This document shows, in pieces, positions 20,665 through 36,112 of a stretch of DNA of 64,000 bases. Numbering within the stretch: the first letter of the stretch is position 1; each line of letters starts with the position of its first letter. Origin of the DNA: Methanomicrobium antiquum (GTDB lineage: Archaea > Halobacteriota > Methanomicrobia > Methanomicrobiales > Methanomicrobiaceae); assembly GCF_029633915.1 (NCBI RefSeq), contig NZ_CP091092.1, forward strand, positions 744,001 through 808,000, read 5' to 3'. Below the pieces are notes generated by a model. That model saw only the letters and a program-made list of their open reading frames with translations, had not been told where the DNA came from and made no database searches. Both the position numbers and the translations under genes were made by a program.

Positions 20665-22325
20665 CCTAACTTTGCCAGTTAGAGTTCAATCCCCCTCAAG
20701 ATACTGTCCACTATCTCTATTCGATTTTTTCAAATTTTTGTCAGGAAATAGAATTTGACAGTTGGCTATTTTACTACTTTAAAATCATGAAATGCCCCAG
20801 TCATAGAGTAAAATCTTCGTATTTATGGAGTCAAAATTCGAGTGAATGTACTTTTTTGTCTTTCTTTTCCACAAATCAATGGTAACTGTCAAATTCGATA
20901 ATGATTTTTTTATGAATTTTGTAGATGTATGCTTCATTTCCGGGATTTCAAATCGAATCAGTGAAATAAAAAGCTGTGCAATAAATCCGATGATTAACGC
21001 ACCATAAATGCTGTTATCTGTCCAGACTCTCAATGGTTTAATTTCAATTTCATTCTTTAAAGAGTGGAATATCTTCTCAATCGAGTCTTTTTTTCGATAT
21101 GTATTTAGGGCCTCAACAAGTGTCAAATTCTTACTTGATTTCAGACAGAAAAATCCTTCTCTGCCAGTGATTAATTTATCTTCAAGGAGTTTTACAGCTT
21201 CATCCTCTGAAATTTGAACAAGTTTTGTCTGGATGGAATAATCAACATCAACAAGCAAATTATTTATACGAAACTTCTTAGGGAGTTTTTTATTTTTTTC
21301 AATACATTCCTGAATCGTTTTTGCTTCCTTAATCTGTTTCACAACTTTTCTCGCCCTGGATTCAAGTTGTTCTTTCTGAAGTTTCTTTGAAAAATAGAAG
21401 TAATTGATGCTGTTTGGTTTCACAATTTTAATGCCGCGAATGCCGGCTTCATCATCAATAATTTCAGGACTATATTCTTCGAATTTTGCAATTATCTTAT
21501 CATCACTTTTGTTAAGCTTCTTTCCTGTGATATACTGCAGGTTATCGGAGCGAATCATCTGAGTATTATCAATGCTGTTTGCACCTTTGTCAAATATTAC
21601 TAGAGAATCTTCTTTTAATCTATCTTTTACCTGAAGATACGTCTTTTTGAAATGTTTCTGATCGTTGAGATTTCCGGGTTCAACAGTCATTCCTATCGGA
21701 ATATTGATTGGATTAGCCAGTTCAGCCAATCCAATAGTTATCTGTTTTTTGTCAGGTCTGTGATCCCGACTATATCCATATTTACCAAGTTCTGCTTTAT
21801 TTCCGTGAAGAACTATACTGGTCCAGTCCATGTTGATGTCGGTGAGATCAAAATCATACCTATCAAAGATTCTATCCTGAATATCTGAGATGATTTCTTC
21901 TCTGTTTGCTCCGATTGTTTCAAGAAGACGATAAATCGTTCTTTCACTGAAAGAAATCAGGTTAAATATCTGCAAAACCTCTAAGCGATTTATCCATCCA
22001 TGTGAGCGCTTGATGCTGAAATTATCAGTCAGCTTGTAACTGATAAGCGCGATAAGTAAATCATCGATACTTATTCCTTTTTTCTTATGCTTGCCAAAAA
22101 TTTCTGAAAAATTAAGTATTTCATATAGTGTTTTGACAAGCAGGATGATGCCAATAGGAAAGGATATATTGTCATTAGGCTCAACTACATAGGTTCTTAG
22201 TTTTGTTTGCATGTTTGATCATTTGTAACATCACTAAGAACAGTCTTATTTCTTTTTAATTGGATTTTTGAGCTATTTATTCAAATCATTTGATTGGTAC
22301 TTTATACGTAAGTGGCAAACTTAGG
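20665..22325 (-). mobile_element. Complete IS1634-type insertion sequence
   Basis: A 1661-base element with imperfect terminal repeats: CCTAACTTTGCCAGTTA at the left end and, on the opposite strand, CCTAAGTTTGCCACTTA at the right end (15 of 17 match). Both ends are flanked by the direct repeat TTCTAA (20659-20664 and 22326-22331), a 6-base target duplication. It carries one intact transposase gene and looks young and possibly active. Confidence 0.92.
20785..22212 (-). CDS. IS1634-family transposase (DDE type)
   Basis: A 475-residue transposase of the IS4/IS1634 group. Catalytic acid candidates are D in NMDWTSI, D in VIFDKGANS, and E in YRKKDSIEKIF. The last is the Y-(2)-R-(3)-E-(6)-K type signature. 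The middle carries GYSRDHRPDKKQITIGL, also typical. The frame is uninterrupted and the ATG lies 113 bases inside the right terminal repeat, so the enzyme is probably functional. Confidence 0.9.
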   Translation of the reverse strand: MQTKLRTYVVEPNDNISFPIGIILLVKTLYEILNFSEIFGKHKKKGISIDDLLIALISYKLTDNFSIKRSHGWINRLEVLQIFNLISFSERTIYRLLETIGANREEIISDIQDRIFDRYDFDLTDINMDWTSIVLHGNKAELGKYGYSRDHRPDKKQITIGLAELANPINIPIGMTVEPGNLNDQKHFKKTYLQVKDRLKEDSLVIFDKGANSIDNTQMIRSDNLQYITGKKLNKSDDKIIAKFEEYSPEIIDDEAGIRGIKIVKPNSINYFYFSKKLQKEQLESRARKVVKQIKEAKTIQECIEKNKKLPKKFRINNLLVDVDYSIQTKLVQISEDEAVKLLEDKLITGREGFFCLKSSKNLTLVEALNTYRKKDSIEKIFHSLKNEIEIKPLRVWTDNSIYGALIIGFIAQLFISLIRFEIPEMKHTSTKFIKKSLSNLTVTIDLWKRKTKKYIHSNFDSINTKILLYDWGIS

Positions 22326-22429: not shown

Positions 22430-23800
22430 TCATGAAATAATGCTGTCTACAACATCTCCACGGGTATTATAAAGAATTGCCGCATCTCCGCTGTTATCCC
22501 AGACGTCATTAATGCTTTCCCAGCAAAATACTCCTTCTTTATCAGTTTTAACGCCGGAAATGAGTTTTATTGTATCTCGTGATTGTATGTAGGAATTTTT
22601 AGGAAACACGTATGAATTTTTGGTCTTACTGCTTGAGATAACAAATCCTTCTATATCGACAGTTTCCTGCCCTGAATTTTTAATTTCTACTTCATTTGAT
22701 ATCACATCAATTGAAGTAACCTCAATATTTATACCTGTATTAAAATTTGAAAAATTATCTTCATCAGGGCTGTTGTTTGCAGTATTTTTACTCTCATCTA
22801 AAACAGATTCATTATCAGACCCAAAGATTGCATCACCTGCAGTTTTGGGAATTTCAAATAAATCGAATGTTTTGTCCTGCATTCCCTTTGAAAACATTGC
22901 ATATACAGGATAATGATCAGATACCAGTTTTGTGAAGTCATCTGTTAGTGAATATTCTGTATCAAACCTGTGGACACCTGCATCTCCAGTGTAAAAGTCA
23001 TTTCCACCTGTTATAACAATTCTATCATATGTGCAGTCAGTTGTTCCAGTTGTTGTATCAAGGATGTTATCAATAACCCATACATAGCCTTTGCTTTTCA
23101 TTGGAGTGTAGGTATTTTCATCAAAATATCTGCCATCTGCGTTGTAATCACCCATAATGACTACAGTTTCATCAACAGGCAGAACATTTTTGGCATACTC
23201 TGCTACCTGGTAGAGTCCGTCAATTTCTTCTTTTGCCTCATCGGGATCTGTATGAATTACGACAAAAGTAGCGTTGAATAAACCCTCTGAAGACTTAAAT
23301 GATCCAATAAATGGTTCTCTGTGAAATGGATCAGTGTTTTCAGGTTCAGGGTATGTGAAAGGATCTGATATAGGGTCAATAGTCTTTGTATTGTAAATAT
23401 ATGCATACTGTTCTTTGCTTGATGTTCTTCCAAGCCTTTCGCTGACAAAATATGAATACATTGATCCGTCCGAGTTTACAAGACTGATAAGTTGTGGAAG
23501 AGCTGTTCCTGAACTGTCCCTTATCTCCTGTATAGCGATTATATCATATTGTCTGATTATTTTGGATATGATATTCATGACATCACTGTTTTCAGCTTTT
23601 GTTGTACCAAAGACCTGAATATTGAATGCTCCTGCTTTAATCAGAGAACTGTCTTTATCATCGTTTAAAAATACGTTTTGAGCGGTATCAGAGATTACAT
23701 CTTTTTGCGAAACAGCAAAGATAATTAGTATAATTACAAGTGCAATTTTAAGAAAAAATGGTGCATTCTTCTTTGATGATTTTTTTCTTTTTGCGGCCAT
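22430..23800 (-). CDS. Exported endonuclease/exonuclease/phosphatase-like protein with lamin-tail domain
   Basis: A 456-residue protein with a basic N-terminus and one hydrophobic segment (about residues 14-34), so it is secreted or membrane-anchored. Residues about 58-310 form a DNase I-like fold: AFNIQVFG, IAIQEIRD, VVIHTDPDEA, VIMGDYNADG, YDRIVI and SDHYPVYA supply the metal and catalytic residues. After a polar linker, residues about 355-456 resemble a lamin-tail domain (EVEIKNSGQETVDIEGFVIS and DAAILYNTRGDVVDS). An extracellular nuclease is likely; a phosphodiesterase with another substrate is possible. Confidence 0.85.
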   Translation of the reverse strand: MAAKRKKSSKKNAPFFLKIALVIILIIFAVSQKDVISDTAQNVFLNDDKDSSLIKAGAFNIQVFGTTKAENSDVMNIISKIIRQYDIIAIQEIRDSSGTALPQLISLVNSDGSMYSYFVSERLGRTSSKEQYAYIYNTKTIDPISDPFTYPEPENTDPFHREPFIGSFKSSEGLFNATFVVIHTDPDEAKEEIDGLYQVAEYAKNVLPVDETVVIMGDYNADGRYFDENTYTPMKSKGYVWVIDNILDTTTGTTDCTYDRIVITGGNDFYTGDAGVHRFDTEYSLTDDFTKLVSDHYPVYAMFSKGMQDKTFDLFEIPKTAGDAIFGSDNESVLDESKNTANNSPDEDNFSNFNTGINIEVTSIDVISNEVEIKNSGQETVDIEGFVISSSKTKNSYVFPKNSYIQSRDTIKLISGVKTDKEGVFCWESINDVWDNSGDAAILYNTRGDVVDSIIS

Positions 23801-23854: not shown

Positions 23855-24607
23855 TTAAAAATCTGAAGGGTTTGTTGTGATATAGTCATCTTTTGAGATG
23901 ATATGTTTGTCAAATGATTTCCCATTGAATGCAAAAATTGTGATTTTTCCGCCGGATTTAAAAATACGCATGTTTTCATCGTATATTTTTCTAACCGGTT
24001 TTAAATTATTCTCTTTAAAATAACCAAGAAGAGTGATGTAGAAGTCCTTCTCCTGTAAAAGAAACTTTTTTTCATAATTGATTGTATCTTCTGCGTATTC
24101 CAAAGAGAGGTTTTCAGGTATTAAATTACCATATTCTCCATGCTGATCAAGACCTGAAATCTGCCGCCATTCAACGTTTCCAGTCTCATCTGCCTCGCGG
24201 TGAAGCATGTAAGGATATATTTTGCATATGGAAAATCTGTCATCATAAATTCTGCACTTTTTACTTTTATCTTCAAGAAAGACACAATCGCCGTTATTTT
24301 TTGTTTTGAGTGCATATCCGGAGACATAAAAACAGCCGTTATTGTCGCAGACCTCAAAATATGGTGCAGGAATAATCATAGAGGGATATTTTTCAACTGC
24401 ACGGACAAGATCTTCTGATAATAAAAAAACATGGTCATTAAATTCTTTTGTACAGCATCTGCCGCAAAGGGTGCATGAAAAACCTACATCCGAGATTATT
24501 CTGGCAAGTTCTTCTTTTGGATAGTCAAGAAGAGCAGATAATTCTGCATCCAAATCTGAAATTGCCTTTGATATTGAATTAATTGTGTTAATTGAGATTT
24601 TTCTCAC
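23855..24607 (-). CDS. YkgJ-family cysteine cluster protein
   Basis: A 250-residue protein with the YkgJ/Fe-S type zinc- or iron-chelating pattern: CTLCGRCCTKEF (about residue 46), then CVFLEDKSKKCRIYDDRFSI and CKIYPYML. The family is widespread and mostly unassigned, with roles in metal binding or maturation suggested. The upstream side is a long intergenic region with a copy of the dispersed repeat. It is separated from the nuclease-like gene by about 55 bases and may share a transcript with it. Confidence 0.82.
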   Translation of the reverse strand: MRKISINTINSISKAISDLDAELSALLDYPKEELARIISDVGFSCTLCGRCCTKEFNDHVFLLSEDLVRAVEKYPSMIIPAPYFEVCDNNGCFYVSGYALKTKNNGDCVFLEDKSKKCRIYDDRFSICKIYPYMLHREADETGNVEWRQISGLDQHGEYGNLIPENLSLEYAEDTINYEKKFLLQEKDFYITLLGYFKENNLKPVRKIYDENMRIFKSGGKITIFAFNGKSFDKHIISKDDYITTNPSDF

Positions 24608-25144
24608 CTTATATTGATCTTATTTGACAGGCTAAATTTGCTGGCACGAAATATAATAATATTCACTTTTGTTTTAATTTTGACATGAAAATTATTTTGT
24701 AACTTACATGAAATTGTGCATGAAATATAATTTCACGAGCGGTTGTTATGAAAGTCAAAATCCCAAACAAACTTAATAATTGATTATTTTTGGTGAAACC
24801 GCCAATCATATGGATTTTTTCATAAAAATATATATATTTGATGTTTTAACTTTGCGGGGTCTTATTAATCAAAAATTAAAATTCTCTTAGAATTTCTTAG
24901 AAATATACCTGAATGTCTCTTTAGAAATTCTCTTAAAAGTCCTTTTAGAAATTTTCCTAGTAATTTTATTTCTAACCAGCTTAGAATTTATGCTCTATTT
25001 GTTTATGCTTTATGAGTGTATCCAGTTATCCCCTATCCTATCTGGACGGGTTTATCTAAAACCTGGTCAAACTCTATGAAATTATCAGATATTTAGGTGA
25101 CCCTCTAAATGTTTAAGGGCAGATCAATCATAGATATTCAAAAA
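24608..25144. other. Intergenic region between YkgJ gene and second IS
   Basis: No gene seen. It holds a copy of the dispersed repeat (24682-24747) and then short repeats around CTCTTAGAAATT and TTTTAGAAATTTTCC (about 24880-24960). TATATATTTG near 24825 is TATA-like, but no gene follows on that strand. Confidence 0.5.
24682..24747 (+). repeat. Dispersed double-hairpin repeat, copy 2 (divergent)
   Basis: It reads GACATGAAAATTATTTTGTA and continues through ACTTACATGAAATTGTG to a second hairpin ATGAAAT-ATA-ATTTCA. It aligns end to end with copies 3 and 4, but the first palindrome has lost several pairs. Confidence 0.7.
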
Positions 25145-26378
25145 ATGACACTCTTTTACTTAAAAATAGTATAATCCTACATAGCTAACGCTAGTGACAT
25201 GGCATTTTTTCTGATGAAATTTACCTAATAATAACGCGAAAACCTGGATTTTTCCATGCCGGATTGTATCCTTGCAAGATCAAGTATCTGAAATGCAACG
25301 AAATTTAAAAGGACATTAAATTCCCTGTTATCCTCCTGATATCCTTTCACATCAAACTTAACCGTTTTTTTGATATGTGCATGTTTTCTTTCACAGTTGC
25401 TCCTGCTTTTTAATTTCTTATTAAATTCGGGATTATCCATATTTTTGTTTCTCAGGTATTTTCCTACGATTTTTTTATGACCATTTTCATATAGGAACCT
25501 GAGTTTGTCCTGCATCTTCGAATGGACATCTCCACCTTTCTTCCACATTTTATTGACTAATTCATCAATTTTTTTGGATGTTGCTTCTTCATGGTAAGTT
25601 GCATTCTCAGGAAGAGTGATTATTGGGTGGACACCTAAAATATACCATGCGTCTCCATGAGTGTCGAAGCTCTTATAGCCCGCATCAAGTGAAAATTTAG
25701 TTATATTAGGTTTTATTTCTTCAACAGATTTTAATAAGGAATAGCTATGCTTTTCGTCATGTTCTGTTGCATTCGAAAATTCCATGAATAAGACACTGTT
25801 TTCGTAATGGAATATGTGCGCCTTGTCCATGTAAATTTTATAATGCGGATTAAATTTTGAACATTTGCTGTATCTTGAAGCTTCCAGAGGAGTTGAATCA
25901 ATGATTCCCTCACCGTTAGGAATCAGTCTCATTATCTTTTCAGCCAAAAATTTCATCAGTTTAATGACTCCATTCTTTCCAACTCGTGAACTTGCAAAAT
26001 AGTGTAAGGTTGATTTTGAAGGGCGTAAATATGATTTTGTTTCAGGATCATAAGGTAATGAGAGCAATCTGCATTCTTCATCTGTTAAGGAAGTTACAAC
26101 CTGCAGGTACGATTGCCTTCTGAATGATTTTACGGCGAGTAACTTTAGAAGTGCAACTACAGGAAAATGTTTTCTCCATTTATCCTGGGAATAACTGTCC
26201 CTTTCCAGATCAATTATTATCTCATTGAAGTTGAGTTCGCTAAGGAGTTTGCAGATTGACTCTGGCCTTATTATTCCATTTTCATAAAAATCAGGTTCAA
26301 ATTGGGTTTATTCACTGAATTCCATGAACCATCACAGTTCAAATATATAAAGGCATGTATTAATTGCCTGAGTGTCAT
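25145..26378 (-). mobile_element. Second insertion sequence, probably decayed
   Basis: This element encloses a DDE transposase gene. Candidate terminal repeats are ATGACACTC at 25145-25153 and its complement GAGTGTCAT at 26370-26378, with A-rich flanks that could be a duplication but are too simple to prove it. A second inverted pair, TTTTACTTAAAAA at 25154-25166 and its complement at 26395-26407, makes the right boundary uncertain. Confidence 0.55.
25225..26325 (-). pseudogene. DDE transposase with in-frame stop at codon 6
   Basis: From ATG 26323-26325 the frame reads MEFSE, then TAA (26308-26310), then TQFEPDFYENGIIRPE and on without a break for about 360 codons. The N-terminal region (about residues 7-80) is clearly homologous-looking transposase sequence, so the stop is a likely nonsense mutation. 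Catalytic residues remain: D in IIDSTPLEASRYS, D in FSLDAGYKS and E in RSNCERKHAH. A shortened product starting at the internal TTG 26065-26067 would lack about 85 residues. I place it in the IS4/IS5-like DDE group without a firm family. Confidence 0.75.
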
Positions 26379-26544
26379 AAAAAATGGCAATAAGTTTTTA
26401 AGTAAAAAAGCTGTCTGGATGAGCTCTTTATTGGAAATCAATAAGATAAAAAGAAAGGATATGAGAATTTTTTTAGTTCAATCATTTTTTAGCTGATTGC
26501 AGAAAAAAAAAGAGTATCGGAAGTTTTTAGTTATTCATATTTTT

Positions 26545-27036
26545 TCAGATATTATGGATTGTCTGTGGAATATTTGCCTCGTTATAGTACTTTTGGATGA
26601 ATCCGTCAGGAAAAATAATTTCTGTTTCTGAAGGTGACAGATCAAAGCTTGTAATTTTAGCAACCCAGTGATCTTTTAAAATATCTTCAGCCTTCAGCAG
26701 ATTGAGCGAAGGAACAGTATATGTTGTACTTCCGTCTTTTTCAATTATATCTGTGTAATTGTAAATCTTAAAAACCGCTTTTTTATCGTCTGTGCTAATA
26801 ACATCAATAGGTTGTGATGTTCTTGCGTCAATTTCATCCCTGATTATAGCAGGAGCACTGGCAATATTTGTGTAATATCCGATTAGCTCAAAAAAAGACA
26901 TGCTGTAATCAAATTCAGAGATACAATCTCCGTTTTCCTCAACAGTTACTTTGTAAGTGTTCAGAGTAAATGCCTGAACTGAAACTGAAAGAGATGCAAG
27001 TAAAAGTACCAGCAAAAAAATTTTAAATATCTTCAT
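26545..27036 (-). CDS. Small exported protein of unknown function
   Basis: A 163-residue protein with a clear signal peptide (MKIFKIFLLVLLLASLSVSV, then QAF) and a mature part of mostly beta strands. There are no cysteines that suggest a lipobox or disulfides beyond a single Cys near residue 38. It lies 54 bases downstream of the kinase gene of the VWA/PP2C/kinase triad on the same strand, so it may be the last gene of that operon. I do not recognise the family. Confidence 0.75.
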   Translation of the reverse strand: MKIFKIFLLVLLLASLSVSVQAFTLNTYKVTVEENGDCISEFDYSMSFFELIGYYTNIASAPAIIRDEIDARTSQPIDVISTDDKKAVFKIYNYTDIIEKDGSTTYTVPSLNLLKAEDILKDHWVAKITSFDLSPSETEIIFPDGFIQKYYNEANIPQTIHNI

Positions 27037-27090
27037 ATCAAATCACTCCTTTAATCTGGTATTTAAGTTACGCATTGAATAAAAATATTG

Positions 27091-28902
27091 TCACTGACTT
27101 TTATTATCTGTTGAATCTTTTTTTAAAACCGTTATCCCGACAGGAATATAAAATGAGCCTCCGTTTGTTGATATTTCAACCTTTCCAAGTACAAGAATTT
27201 TATTTCCGGCCTTATTTGTGTCAATTATAATTTCTATTATCTGCTCTGAACCAGTACTGAAAGAATCAGGTAATACACTAATCCAGTCTCTGTCTGAACT
27301 TACAGAGCCTTTTAAAATTCCGTCACCCTTATTTGATAAAACTGCATTTACCTGCACGATATCTCCTGCATTTACATCTTTCAGCATAATTTTTTTTGGT
27401 GAAATCTCTGCACAGGGAGCTTTTCCTGCGGCAACTGTGACTGGAATTTTAAAATTTCCGCTGTTTGACAAAAAATATATATTTCCTGCAAATTTTAATC
27501 CCTCAAAATCAGAAGGAATTATTGATTTGTCGATTGATATTTCAACATCTGCTTTTTTTGCAGTCGAAAAGTCTTTATTTTTTATTATTATCCATTTTCT
27601 GTCTGAGCTTAATTTTCCTGATAATATACCGTCTCCTGCATTTTCAATTTCAAGCTTGAAACTGAGGCTTTTATCCTTTGATTCACTTTTTATGGAATCA
27701 TTTTCAAGCAATCTGAAATCAATATGCCGGGTAGAAAATTTAGCGAGAGGCGTAAAAATCTTCGCAGGCCTGGACTCGTCTGCAAAAGGCTTTTTGCTGA
27801 TAAAAGGAGATTTTTTTGCATTATTTTTTTCCGGAGGAAAAATATCGCAGTTATTTTTTCCGGAAGCTTTTATTCTGCACCACGGGCAGAAGTCAAGATG
27901 GCCTGAGTACCAGTGGTTGGAGTTTACCTTGCACTGCCGGATCTGGTTGAGCTCTTCTCTTAGTATCTCTGCCCACTCTAAAGCAGACGGCCTTAAATTT
28001 TTATTCTTATGTCCTGATACAAAACAGCGGCTGAACAAATCTCTTACAGCCGGAGGGATTATCGAATATGACGGAGCATGTTTTGGAGGAAAGATATCAG
28101 GGGATCTTCTGACATACGGAAAAAAGCCAAACATAATCTTCTGTTCTGTTGTTGGATACTTTGAAATGCCGTTTCCCCTTGCCTGAAATGGATGATAACC
28201 ATTCATTAAAAGCTTAAATATTATAACCCCAAGCGCAAAGAGATCGGAATAATATCTGTCAATATTTTCGTCCCTGAAATTTCTGCCCATTAGTTCCGGC
28301 GGCAGGAAATCACCTGTTGCGACTTTTGTATAATAGATTTGTTTCTTTTCCTTATCCTCAATCTGAAAGGAGTCACAGTCAATAATTGAAACTGCTGAAG
28401 TCCTTGCAACCAGAATGTTACTTGCGCTTATATCCCCGATTCTGTGCCCTTTTTCGTGAATAGCGGCGATAACAAATGATATGTTGAATGCCGCTGTTAA
28501 AAGATAAAGCCATGAAAATGAACCACCCATAAGTTTTAGTCTGTCTTCAGGGTCATAGTAACGATGAACCTCCTTAAAAAGCGAGGTATCAACAAAAGGC
28601 ATTACAAATCCGATAAATTTCGTATTTTTTTTATCTGAGTCATATAATAATGAAACAGGCCATGCAATGGAGCTTGTCCGAAGACCAAATCTTTGACCTG
28701 TCAGATTATCACCCGGAGGATTTTTTAGCATGGCGGAAATTTTATCCTTAAGTTCCGGAGTTAACTTGTCCTTAAAATAAATCTTTGCGCAAAGCCCGGG
28801 TTCATTTTCTATGGCATATATTGCACCCTCACCTCCGGTCTTAACCGGCCCTGAAAGTGTTATTCTTTTTTTGTCTTCGGAAAAAACAGTCAGCTTCTGC
28901 AT
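27091..28902 (-). CDS. Protein kinase-like protein of a TerY-P triad, with tandem Ig-like C-terminal domains
   Basis: A 603-residue protein. Residues about 12-310 are a divergent protein kinase: glycine loop KTGGEGAIY, lysine in CAKIYF, catalytic loop HRIGDISASNILV and metal-binding IIDCDSF, then DRYYSDLFALGVIIFKLL. Residues about 325-345 hold a small metal-binding motif, HWYSGHLDFCPWC. Residues about 385-600 are two tandem beta-rich repeats, each with GDGIL-G and SSDR-WI, resembling BACON-like domains. Its start overlaps the stop of the PP2C gene by one base. Kinase plus PP2C plus a TerY-like VWA protein forms the known TerY-P triad, a proposed stress-signalling unit. Confidence 0.85.
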   Translation of the reverse strand: MQKLTVFSEDKKRITLSGPVKTGGEGAIYAIENEPGLCAKIYFKDKLTPELKDKISAMLKNPPGDNLTGQRFGLRTSSIAWPVSLLYDSDKKNTKFIGFVMPFVDTSLFKEVHRYYDPEDRLKLMGGSFSWLYLLTAAFNISFVIAAIHEKGHRIGDISASNILVARTSAVSIIDCDSFQIEDKEKKQIYYTKVATGDFLPPELMGRNFRDENIDRYYSDLFALGVIIFKLLMNGYHPFQARGNGISKYPTTEQKIMFGFFPYVRRSPDIFPPKHAPSYSIIPPAVRDLFSRCFVSGHKNKNLRPSALEWAEILREELNQIRQCKVNSNHWYSGHLDFCPWCRIKASGKNNCDIFPPEKNNAKKSPFISKKPFADESRPAKIFTPLAKFSTRHIDFRLLENDSIKSESKDKSLSFKLEIENAGDGILSGKLSSDRKWIIIKNKDFSTAKKADVEISIDKSIIPSDFEGLKFAGNIYFLSNSGNFKIPVTVAAGKAPCAEISPKKIMLKDVNAGDIVQVNAVLSNKGDGILKGSVSSDRDWISVLPDSFSTGSEQIIEIIIDTNKAGNKILVLGKVEISTNGGSFYIPVGITVLKKDSTDNKSQ

Positions 28903-29831
28903 CAGAACTCTCTTGTAGTATTCTTTTTTATTGCAGATATTACAAGGGTTTTGTCATCATCAGACACTTCATTTAATTTTTCAGACAAAAGAAGTGATTC
29001 AACATCAAGACAGGATTTTGATTCATCTTCTGTAGAATGTGAATAAGAAAAGAGCGGTTTAAAAAAAGGGATAAATGGTATGTATTTTGCATCTTCTTTT
29101 ACTAAAATTGCCCTCTGGCATCCGTCTGTGAATACGGCAACAGAGTCTGCGCCTGATATATTTTCATTTATCCTTAAATTTAAAGACCAGTTTTCAGAAG
29201 TTATTGGAGTAACCTCATTTATGTATTCTGACTCTGCAGGCTCCATTATAATTTCAACATCACCGTTTTTAAACCGCCCGACAACCCCGCCGTCTCCAAT
29301 TTGTCCTGCATTTACTGAATTTTTGTAGATAAAAACGACAATTAAGGTGCATGCAAGCTCATTTATTGGGATTTCCCTTTCTGCTGAATATTCTTTTATT
29401 TCTGAAACAGCAGATTCAAAGCATTCTTTTATTATCTGACAATTTTTTGTAATGTCCGCAGATGTGCTGTTGTCACTATATTTTACAGAGAAGTGCCTCC
29501 TTGCCGTCTCTGCCGCAGCATTTACTGCAATTGATGCTCCAGTGTCAGAGTGTACTGCGCTTCCAAGTCCGTCTGATACTGCAATTACAGCAGAATCATC
29601 TCCAAATTTTAGATATTTAAAAGCATCCTGGCATACAATATTCCTTTTGATATGAGAACTCCCGGTTGCTTTTGCACCAAAGATAAATATCCTGTTCTTC
29701 TCGATTATTTTTTGATTTTTTGGATATTTGGAAGACTCTGAAATTATTTTAGAATTTATATTTTTTGAAATTTTTAAATTGTCCAAATCTCTTAAATTCT
29801 TAGAATCTTTTTTAATTTCTGGCTTTGACAT
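28902..29831 (-). CDS. PP2C-family protein phosphatase of the TerY-P triad
   Basis: A 309-residue metal-dependent serine/threonine phosphatase. After a polar N-terminal 50 residues, the PP2C motifs appear in order: CQDAF, VIAVSDGLGSAVHSD, GQIGDGGVVGRF, VAVFTDGCQ and SDDDKTLVI. These supply the acidic metal ligands. The gene overlaps the kinase downstream by one base and lies 194 bases after the VWA gene. It is expected to oppose the kinase by dephosphorylating the VWA protein or another partner. Confidence 0.88.
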   Translation of the reverse strand: MSKPEIKKDSKNLRDLDNLKISKNINSKIISESSKYPKNQKIIEKNRIFIFGAKATGSSHIKRNIVCQDAFKYLKFGDDSAVIAVSDGLGSAVHSDTGASIAVNAAAETARRHFSVKYSDNSTSADITKNCQIIKECFESAVSEIKEYSAEREIPINELACTLIVVFIYKNSVNAGQIGDGGVVGRFKNGDVEIIMEPAESEYINEVTPITSENWSLNLRINENISGADSVAVFTDGCQRAILVKEDAKYIPFIPFFKPLFSYSHSTEDESKSCLDVESLLLSEKLNEVSDDDKTLVISAIKKNTTREF

Positions 29832-30025
29832 GGAATACTCCTGAATATTATCTTAAATATGTCTGAAATTCTCCTAAAAAATTAGTCTGGAAAACAGTAA
29901 ATTTCCGGATATAAAAGATTGATTTTAAAATCACCAAAATCACCTGAATTTATGCTTATTTTGTGTTTTGATTACAAATCAAAATTTATTTGAATGGATT
30001 TGATTTAAATTTCTTTTTGAGAAGA

Positions 30026-30736
30026 TTAAATTGAAGGGATTTCTCCCCATCCATTTGTTCCAAAAGGATCATCGAGGATTACCTGTTCACCCATTGTTGA
30101 TGCAGAGACCTTTGTCTGGCTCTTAGAAAGCCACAAAAACATCTCTTTGAAATGGTTTTCTTTTAATTTTATTGGTGTTCTTGCAGGCGGTGATATTTTT
30201 TTAAGGGTCTCCATATCGGCTGAGTCAACGCCGACTGCGAAGAACAAAAACCTTCCCTCATCCTCGCCTTTGTGAATCTCTGATACAATTTCATTCCATT
30301 TATCATCCCCTTCAGACATGTCGGTCGGCTCACCGTCTGTTATTAAAAATATCCAGGGGCGGTAGTAATCAATTCCCTCTTTTTTGTATTCGTTTTTCCT
30401 CTTTTCAAGAATATCAAGAGTCTTTTTGATGGCATCCCCCATAGGTGTCAGGCCGTCTGCAATAAGTTCAGGCGGGTTGAAATCCTCTACTGATGAAAAA
30501 TCATGTGCAACCTCAACTTTGCTTCCAAAGGTTATTACAGATACATCAACTCTTTTTCTTGCCAGTTCGTCCTGCTCAATCTCTTCTTTGAAAATCCTTA
30601 TCCCTTCATTGAGCTGAGAAATTTTATCTCCGATAACCATTGAGCCGGATACATCAAGGAGAAGTATTGTCGGGCAGTGCGGCTGTTGAGGATAAGCTAT
30701 CTCTACAATATCTTCAAGTGTCATATTAAACCTCAT
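30026..30736 (-). CDS. TerY-like von Willebrand factor A domain protein
   Basis: A 236-residue single-domain VWA protein. The MIDAS metal site is visible as DVSGSM, then a threonine in GLTPMGDA and an aspartate in ITDGEPTD. The C-terminal segment with KISPPARTPIKLKENHFKEMFLWLSKS matches TerY proteins of tellurite-resistance-type clusters. It stands first in the strand order of the VWA-PP2C-kinase triad. In related systems the VWA protein is the presumed phosphorylation target or scaffold. It is cytosolic, with no signal peptide. Confidence 0.88.
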   Translation of the reverse strand: MRFNMTLEDIVEIAYPQQPHCPTILLLDVSGSMVIGDKISQLNEGIRIFKEEIEQDELARKRVDVSVITFGSKVEVAHDFSSVEDFNPPELIADGLTPMGDAIKKTLDILEKRKNEYKKEGIDYYRPWIFLITDGEPTDMSEGDDKWNEIVSEIHKGEDEGRFLFFAVGVDSADMETLKKISPPARTPIKLKENHFKEMFLWLSKSQTKVSASTMGEQVILDDPFGTNGWGEIPSI

Positions 30737-34999: not shown

Positions 35000-36112
35000 T
35001 TATGAATCAGCCAGATATTCATATACTCCTTTTCTGTCGTATCTGTGCTCTGCTATGTAATTGTAAATGTTTACAAAATTATTGTATTGGTTTACGAGCG
35101 CTTCAAGAGAAGATGATTTTTTGTTGTATTCAGATATCATACTGTTGTAGGAAGATACATTGCGGTTGTATTCAGCGATATTCCCGCTGTCTTTAAGAAT
35201 TTTCATCTTTTCTTTGAATGCGGAGATTTGATCTGCCATTCTTTCAGCCTCGGCCTTATCCTCAATTATCTGCTTTTCAGTATCATATGTAAATTTTAGC
35301 GCTTCATTCATCTTTTGATAGATGAATAAAACATCCCCGCAACTTTGATACGCAATTGTGCCTTTTCCTGCCGAAATAATATACGGGTCTGATTTTATAG
35401 AAGCATTATCATCAGTCTTAATTTCAGGCCAGCCGATGTAACTGTAGCCTGTTACTTCAGCGTATGCATACCCTGTGTTTTTGTATGTGCAGATATCAGA
35501 TTTTATACCTACAGCCATATGCTCTTCTGCCTCAAATTCAAAAAGTGCGACATCATACCCTTCTTTTGCAAGAAGTGCCGCCGCAAGAATACTTTTGTCA
35601 TCGCAGTCACCTGAGTTTTCATAAATGGTTTCAACTGGAAATTTCGGCTGTTTTCTTGTATCGTCAGTCCTGTAGGGAATTGACTGTGCATAGGCAAAAA
35701 TAAGTTCTGCATACCTGTCAGAATCAAGAGACATCTTCTGCTTTATTTTTTGAAATTCTTCAAGAATTGGAATGTAAACCATATCCATTGCAGGAGAAAT
35801 CATAAATGAACTGTAATATTCATCATACCATTCGTTTGAAGATAATTTTTCGGGGTTTAAGTATGCAGACTTATCTGAGTTATATGCGGCAGAATAAATT
35901 CCCATATCGATCGGAACTGTAAGGTTAATCTTTCTGTTCTCAAAATTAAAGGAATGAGTGATATAATTATAATCTCCTGTTACAGAGGAAGTCCCGACAT
36001 GAGGAAACCTGTCAGTTTTTGCAGGCAGAAATTCTCCTGTGCATCCGGCTGAAAGAACAAAGAGCAGAATTAAAATTGCGCTTAATAAAAGGAGTGAAAT
36101 TTTTGCCGGCAT
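35000..36112 (-). CDS. Lipoprotein with transglutaminase-like domain
   Basis: A 370-residue exported protein with a lipobox (VLSAGC, about residue 24). Residues about 125-240 resemble the transglutaminase-like cysteine protease fold: the cysteine in NSGDCDDKSILAAALL, the histidine in EEHMAVGI and an acidic residue in the following ATGYSYIGWPE-like region. The last 100 residues are a long coiled coil rich in Asn, Tyr and Lys. It probably acts at the cell surface as a peptidase-like or purely binding protein; substrate unknown. Confidence 0.8.
   Translation of the reverse strand: MPAKISLLLLSAILILLFVLSAGCTGEFLPAKTDRFPHVGTSSVTGDYNYITHSFNFENRKINLTVPIDMGIYSAAYNSDKSAYLNPEKLSSNEWYDEYYSSFMISPAMDMVYIPILEEFQKIKQKMSLDSDRYAELIFAYAQSIPYRTDDTRKQPKFPVETIYENSGDCDDKSILAAALLAKEGYDVALFEFEAEEHMAVGIKSDICTYKNTGYAYAEVTGYSYIGWPEIKTDDNASIKSDPYIISAGKGTIAYQSCGDVLFIYQKMNEALKFTYDTEKQIIEDKAEAERMADQISAFKEKMKILKDSGNIAEYNRNVSSYNSMISEYNKKSSSLEALVNQYNNFVNIYNYIAEHRYDRKGVYEYLADS

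Follow-up and report, generated by a model that had tools for sequence, protein, structure and literature searches.

Results

Gene content of the locus

The window analysed here is the 64,000-nucleotide stretch of the Methanomicrobium antiquum chromosome between positions 744,001 and 808,000 of NZ_CP091092.1, and all coordinates below are given within it. Four open reading frames were found on the minus strand at the coordinates where the original prediction had placed them, transcribed in the order VWA, PP2C, kinase and exported gene. The PP2C and kinase genes overlap by a single base, the VWA and PP2C genes are separated by 194 bp, and 54 bp lie between the kinase and the exported gene. The features of these genes and of their neighbourhood are as follows.

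30026..30736, minus strand: VWA protein, YegL/TerY-like, 236 aa (Pfam VWA, 3.2e-10; DVSGS of MIDAS type, with the T and D of ITDG present)
28902..29831, minus strand: PP2C phosphatase, PphC-like, 309 aa (Pfam PP2C_2, 5.1e-43; metal-site type motifs SDG, GDG, TDG and DDDK)
27091..28902, minus strand: Ser/Thr-type protein kinase, YegI-like, 603 aa (Pfam Pkinase, 8.9e-11)
27958..28866, minus strand: kinase domain, approximately residues 13-315 (GGEG loop, K40, HRIGD(157)xSxxN(162), D(175)CDSFQ)
27877..27933, minus strand: metal-binding-type motif C-x5-H-x8-C-P-W-C, residues 324-342, invariant in the alignment of relatives
27427..27744, minus strand: first Ig-like domain of the kinase, approximately residues 387-492 (AlphaFold2 pLDDT 85; Foldseek; 39% identity to the second repeat)
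27124..27411, minus strand: second Ig-like domain of the kinase, approximately residues 498-593 (Pfam DUF5717_N, 3.3e-9 at 496-598; AlphaFold2 model)
26545..27036, minus strand: exported protein, 163 aa, of an unnamed family of the order (signal peptide; relatives in the order)
26971..27036, minus strand: Sec-type signal peptide ending in VQA, residues 1-22 (sequence; hydropathy maximum at residues 3-25)
25225..26067, minus strand: DDE transposase (Pfam DDE_Tnp_1, 1.2e-9), where relatives have STAS, SpoIIE phosphatase and HATPase genes
23855..24607, minus strand: CxxCxxCC protein, context gene (Pfam PF03692)
22430..23800, minus strand: exported endonuclease/exonuclease/phosphatase with a lamin-tail domain, context gene (Pfam Exo_endo_phos and LTD)

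The first three genes were correctly recognised in the original prediction as a triad of the TerY-P type, as indicated by their Pfam matches, their Escherichia coli homologues and their adjacent order. Over 216 aa, the VWA protein shares 49% identity with E. coli YegL; the phosphatase is 29% identical to PphC, and the kinase 31% identical to YegI over 361 aa, with the CPWC motif inside the aligned stretch. In E. coli K-12, yegL, pphC and yegI lie in one place with no Ter genes beside them. A search of genome contigs with the single kinase sequence gave no match, and an alignment-based query returned 80 kinase loci from archaea, Nitrospirae, Actinomycetota, Planctomycetota, Bacteroidota, Proteobacteria and others. 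All three triad genes stand together in at least 57 of these 80 loci, a minimum count since loci may be cut off at contig ends. Kinase domains 48-51% identical to that of the window occur in triads of Nitrospirae, Actinomycetota and Candidatus Aquicultor. Within the order, the kinase is present in 70 of 232 genomes, and the triad in 45 of 135 good genomes and 17 of 40 genera. Judged by gene families and gene order, the three-gene set is thus an already known and widespread phosphorylation module of the TerY-P type.

The genome containing the window is a single contig of 2.44 Mb with one copy of the kinase, and no match to TerD (PF02342) was obtained anywhere in it, although the positive control in Bacillus subtilis was matched. 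The predicted lack of nearby TerD genes therefore holds for the entire genome. This agrees with the further suggestion that the triad may act alone, but such an arrangement is not new, because the E. coli triad also lies without adjacent Ter genes and stand-alone TerY-P modules have already been reported.

Neighbouring genes

The six triad-bearing genera of the family are labelled g1 and g5 to g9, g6 and g9 being Methanogenium and relatives. The location of the triad beside UDP-glucose dehydrogenase is constant in g1, g5 and g7. The CxxCxxCC gene is found near the triad in g1, g5, g6, g8 and g9, and the exported endonuclease/exonuclease/phosphatase gene in g1, g6, g7, g8 and g9. The CxxCxxCC and lamin-tail genes are recurrent neighbours of the triad in the family, and the CxxCxxCC gene is not part of the module. 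In g6 and g9, an N6/N4 DNA methylase and a permease-like gene stand between the triad and the CxxCxxCC gene.

Genes for a STAS protein, a 5TM-5TMR_LYT-SpoIIE phosphatase and an HATPase_c_2 protein, resembling RsbV, RsbU and RsbW, are convergent beside the triad in two g1 genomes and in g5 and g8. Their site, 24608-26544 of the window, is taken by the transposase in the window strain, and no remnant of the STAS, SpoIIE-phosphatase or HATPase genes was detected in the window. A second DDE transposase gene, encoding 475 aa, lies a few kilobases from the triad at 20785-22212. The gene at 35000-36112 encodes an exported protein that matches a transglutaminase-like family only weakly (Pfam 0.01, below the cut-off).

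The kinase and its C-terminal Ig-like domains

In an alignment with 15 relatives including YegI, the core residues of the kinase are invariant or nearly so, with conservation of K40, D157, N162 and D175, on which ATP binding and catalysis should depend. A lack of activity-type residues had been named in the original prediction as a ground against it, and the alignment returned the opposite, with the catalytic-type residues kept. We infer from the intact active-site residues that the protein would be a catalytically active kinase. The CPWC motif is present as predicted, with the spacing H-x8-CPWC, but it had been regarded as something additionally carried by this kinase. The four-ligand pattern C-x5-H-x8-CPWC was found in 74 of the 80 kinases, from both bacteria and archaea, and the motif is therefore a mark belonging to the core of the kinase family and not a local addition.

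Residues 380-603 of the kinase consist of two tandem repeats, 39% identical over 74 residues, each of which contains GDGIL and SSDR.WI. The repeats had thus been noticed correctly, together with their motifs, whereas their designation as BACON-like is not supported by the profile scores. The BACON and BACON_2 models reached 14.2 and 16.8 bits, below the Pfam cut-off of 25, and DUF5717_N passed its own cut-off with 35.6 against 25 bits, so that Ig-like is the safer name. Structure prediction of the C-terminus, a check proposed with the original prediction, gave two all-beta domains in the AlphaFold2 model with a mean pLDDT of 85, their mutual placement not being fixed by the low pTM of 0.57. 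Foldseek found 580 PDB matches at E <= 0.001 for the tail, the best at 1.1e-11, with TM-scores below 0.5 over the two-domain chain. The top matches were Ig-like domains of the ciliary central pair, CEP192 and titin.

The number of Ig-like domains per kinase is two in g1, g5, g7 and, by alignment, g8, and one in g6 and g9. Throughout the 80-locus set they were matched in only 11 kinases, all from this archaeal order. Hydropathy analysis indicated neither a signal peptide nor a transmembrane segment outside the kinase fold, and the Ig-like tail should therefore sit inside the cell.

The exported protein and its family

The 163-residue protein encoded after the kinase on the same strand was identified as exported in the original prediction, and both the open reading frame and a signal peptide are evident in its sequence: MKIFKIFLLVLLLASLSVSVQA. 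Neither a lipobox nor a C-terminal anchor was seen in the sequence and its hydropathy. The protein matched no Pfam or NCBIfam family above cut-off. Searches with 22 members of its family gave nothing usable; a weak NCBIfam match to a MiiA motif appeared in six of the 22 (best 1.6e-5). The family alignment was too variable for a pattern scan. The structural model, built from five sequences, has a mean pLDDT of 80 and no PDB match at E <= 0.001. The folds that came closest, a chain of the Sec61-TRAP-OST translocon (0.005) and LppM of Mycobacterium (0.023), serve only as leads. We also considered that the neighbouring transposase had shortened the gene, and rejected this explanation, as the relatives stop at the same residue.

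The family is present in 171 of the 232 genomes of the order, including 112 of the 135 good ones, and is nearly confined to it, with a single match in the genomes sampled from the rest of the phylum. Among 19 sampled copies unlinked to the triad, 16 are divergent from a MoxR-DUF58-DUF4350-DUF4129 operon. The window genome itself has a second, diverged copy of the exported gene (27% identity) at such an operon, at about 607 kb. MoxR-type genes beside triads elsewhere were also looked for, and this connection was rejected because none was found in the 80 loci.

Linkage of the exported gene to the triad

The exported gene follows the kinase on the same strand after 32-109 bp in all nine readable triad loci of g1, g5 and g7. 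In one further genome (G116), the kinase and the exported gene each end at contig breaks. The triads of g6, g8 and g9 have no linked exported gene, which is unlinked or absent there, so that linkage to the kinase occurs in only three of the six triad-bearing genera of the family. The four-gene order, which the original prediction had proposed to seek in other methanogens, is hence seen in g1, g5 and g7 and not in g6, g8 and g9. The same prediction had taken an unlinked gene in other genomes as evidence against it, and the outcome is mixed: the exported gene adjoins the kinase in three genera, and it is unlinked or absent in the other three and in most of the order.

The genes beyond the exported gene vary by genus, comprising RsbUVW-like genes, a response regulator or a transposase, and the kinase-exported gene pair stays constant. 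This constancy amid changing outer genes favours an operon, without being proof of one. In g5, g7 and three g1 genomes, the copy at the triad is the sole copy of the exported gene, and no DUF4129-type gene of a MoxR operon was found in these genomes. The linked copies fall in one or two clusters of the tree, a single clade not being rejected (pAU 0.22), and the linkage therefore counts as one or two events. This amounts to one or two relocations of the exported gene, followed by retention.

Discussion

One of the closest known counterparts of the triad is YegL-PphC-YegI of E. coli, in which YegI is reported to autophosphorylate and PphC to dephosphorylate YegI (PMC13232886). Both systems consist of the same three families, have the C-x5-H-x8-CPWC motif in the kinase and lack adjacent Ter genes. 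YegI differs in its other, longer C-terminus and is reported to be a membrane protein (PMC13232886), whereas the tail of the window's kinase consists of two Ig-like domains and no membrane segment was seen. Unlike in the window, no exported gene follows the kinase in E. coli. TerY-P triads (Anantharaman et al. 2012, according to PMC11090510) likewise combine a TerY-like VWA protein, a PP2C phosphatase and a kinase with a C-terminal zinc-ribbon-type motif, but the window's triad has no TerD or other Ter partner in its genome. Nor was a CoCoNuT or any other effector operon seen next to it: the Pfam-scanned open reading frames around the triad include no McrB-like or helicase/nuclease gene as in CoCoNuT type II or III-A systems. 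In this lineage the module has been elaborated by the Ig-like kinase tail and the exported neighbour, the two parts that are new.

Two more distant systems share elements of this architecture. The actinobacterial genes linked to a GAP1-N2 GTPase (PMC7159879) include a kinase-zinc ribbon-beta-rich fusion with PP2C and VWA neighbours; the window has no such GTPase system, and the beta-rich domains are likened by architecture only. In the bifidobacterial PFNA operon (PMC8430577), a MoxR-DUF58-transglutaminase set is joined by a kinase and a phosphatase and by an exported protein of Ig-fold type, and this operon offers a parallel because the MoxR-DUF58 set is the other context of the exported family. 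Its kinase has a different architecture and no VWA gene is named, making this a parallel only.

We favour, with somewhat more than even confidence, the interpretation that the locus encodes a YegL-PphC-YegI (TerY-P) type of phosphorylation switch that stands alone at a fixed chromosomal place, with the exported protein as its likely envelope-side output. The cytosolic kinase would autophosphorylate and then phosphorylate its partners, and the PP2C phosphatase would undo this phosphorylation. The VWA protein might bind a metal or a peptide via its MIDAS site and thereby assemble or gate the kinase/PP2C pair, and the Ig-like tail most likely serves as an intracellular docking site for a substrate or for the VWA/PP2C partners. 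The exported protein would most likely be made from the transcript of the triad and act on the envelope side. Once exported, the protein cannot be a direct substrate of the kinase, which lacks a signal peptide and a membrane segment; as it leaves the compartment of the kinase, it could at best be an output made along with the switch. The analysis shows the gene order, the homology, the intact active-site residues, the fold of the repeats, the signal peptide and the linkage in three genera; catalysis, the role of the VWA protein, the co-transcription and any functional tie of the exported protein are what we infer. The partnership of the exported gene and the triad is a lineage-specific relocation, probably co-transcribed, its function being unproven. 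Against a partnership, the exported family extends well beyond the triad (112 versus 45 of the 135 good genomes) and is usually located elsewhere.

The strongest rival, which concerns the exported gene alone, is an accidental neighbourhood, in which an order-wide housekeeping surface protein was relocated next to the triad without any functional tie. The common position of unlinked copies divergent from the MoxR-DUF58-DUF4350-DUF4129 operon (16 of 19 sampled) and the general synteny of the region are in line with it, and a single move would suffice, given that one clade of linked copies was not rejected. Accident does not readily account for a short same-strand gap kept over three genera in which the kinases are merely 45-61% identical to that of the window and the outer genes change, nor for the triad copy being the sole one, with no MoxR-DUF4129 operon found, in g5, g7 and three g1 genomes. 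We regard it as a serious possibility, a little short of an even chance; this estimate and those for the other alternatives are not mutually exclusive with the reading of the triad as a switch.

Alternatively, the triad might be an antiphage defence module, with the exported gene as a passenger or an anti-infection surface factor. Stand-alone TerY-P-like modules (Gao et al. 2020), in which the triad acts alone as in the window, are reported as antiphage in PMC11090510 and PMC7699616, the latter naming T7-like phages. A patchy distribution over 17 of the 40 genera of the order and the DNA methylase adjoining the triad in g6 and g9 would suit such a role. So would the bacterial kinase domains of about 50% identity, as in Nitrospirae and Candidatus Aquicultor, which suggest transfer between bacteria and archaea. 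However, the triad keeps a single chromosomal site over g1, g5 and g7, among metabolic neighbours and with no other defence genes recognised there, and PADLOC recognised no complete system, with TerY matched only weakly (6e-4). The reported defensive kinases moreover carry an OB-fold, according to PMC11090510, whereas the C-terminus of the window's kinase is modelled as Ig-like domains. We consider a defence role unlikely, though deserving attention. A stress circuit joining the triad and the exported protein to the STAS, SpoIIE-phosphatase and HATPase partner-switch genes, subsequently lost in the window strain, is quite improbable: these three genes do lie next to the triad in two g1 genomes and in g5 and g8, but they are on the opposite strand and missing from g6, g7 and g9, and the triad is retained without them in the window genome.

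Returning to the phosphorylation switch with an envelope-side output, the two genomic contexts of the exported family invite a broader and more speculative proposal, which we think rather doubtful at present. The exported protein might be a regulated component of the envelope, driven by the MoxR-DUF58-DUF4129 membrane operon or, where this operon has been lost, by the kinase-phosphatase-VWA switch. If true, two unrelated control modules would swap the same surface output.

In summary, the triad occurs widely in bacteria and archaea but has yet to be assigned either a signal or an output. Through the unnamed exported family it is connected to the MoxR-DUF58 operons, which are widespread but poorly understood. 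A lineage in which the exported gene follows the kinase on the same strand after a short gap, and in which the kinase has a defined Ig-like tail that would serve docking, may provide a testable candidate output for the triad.
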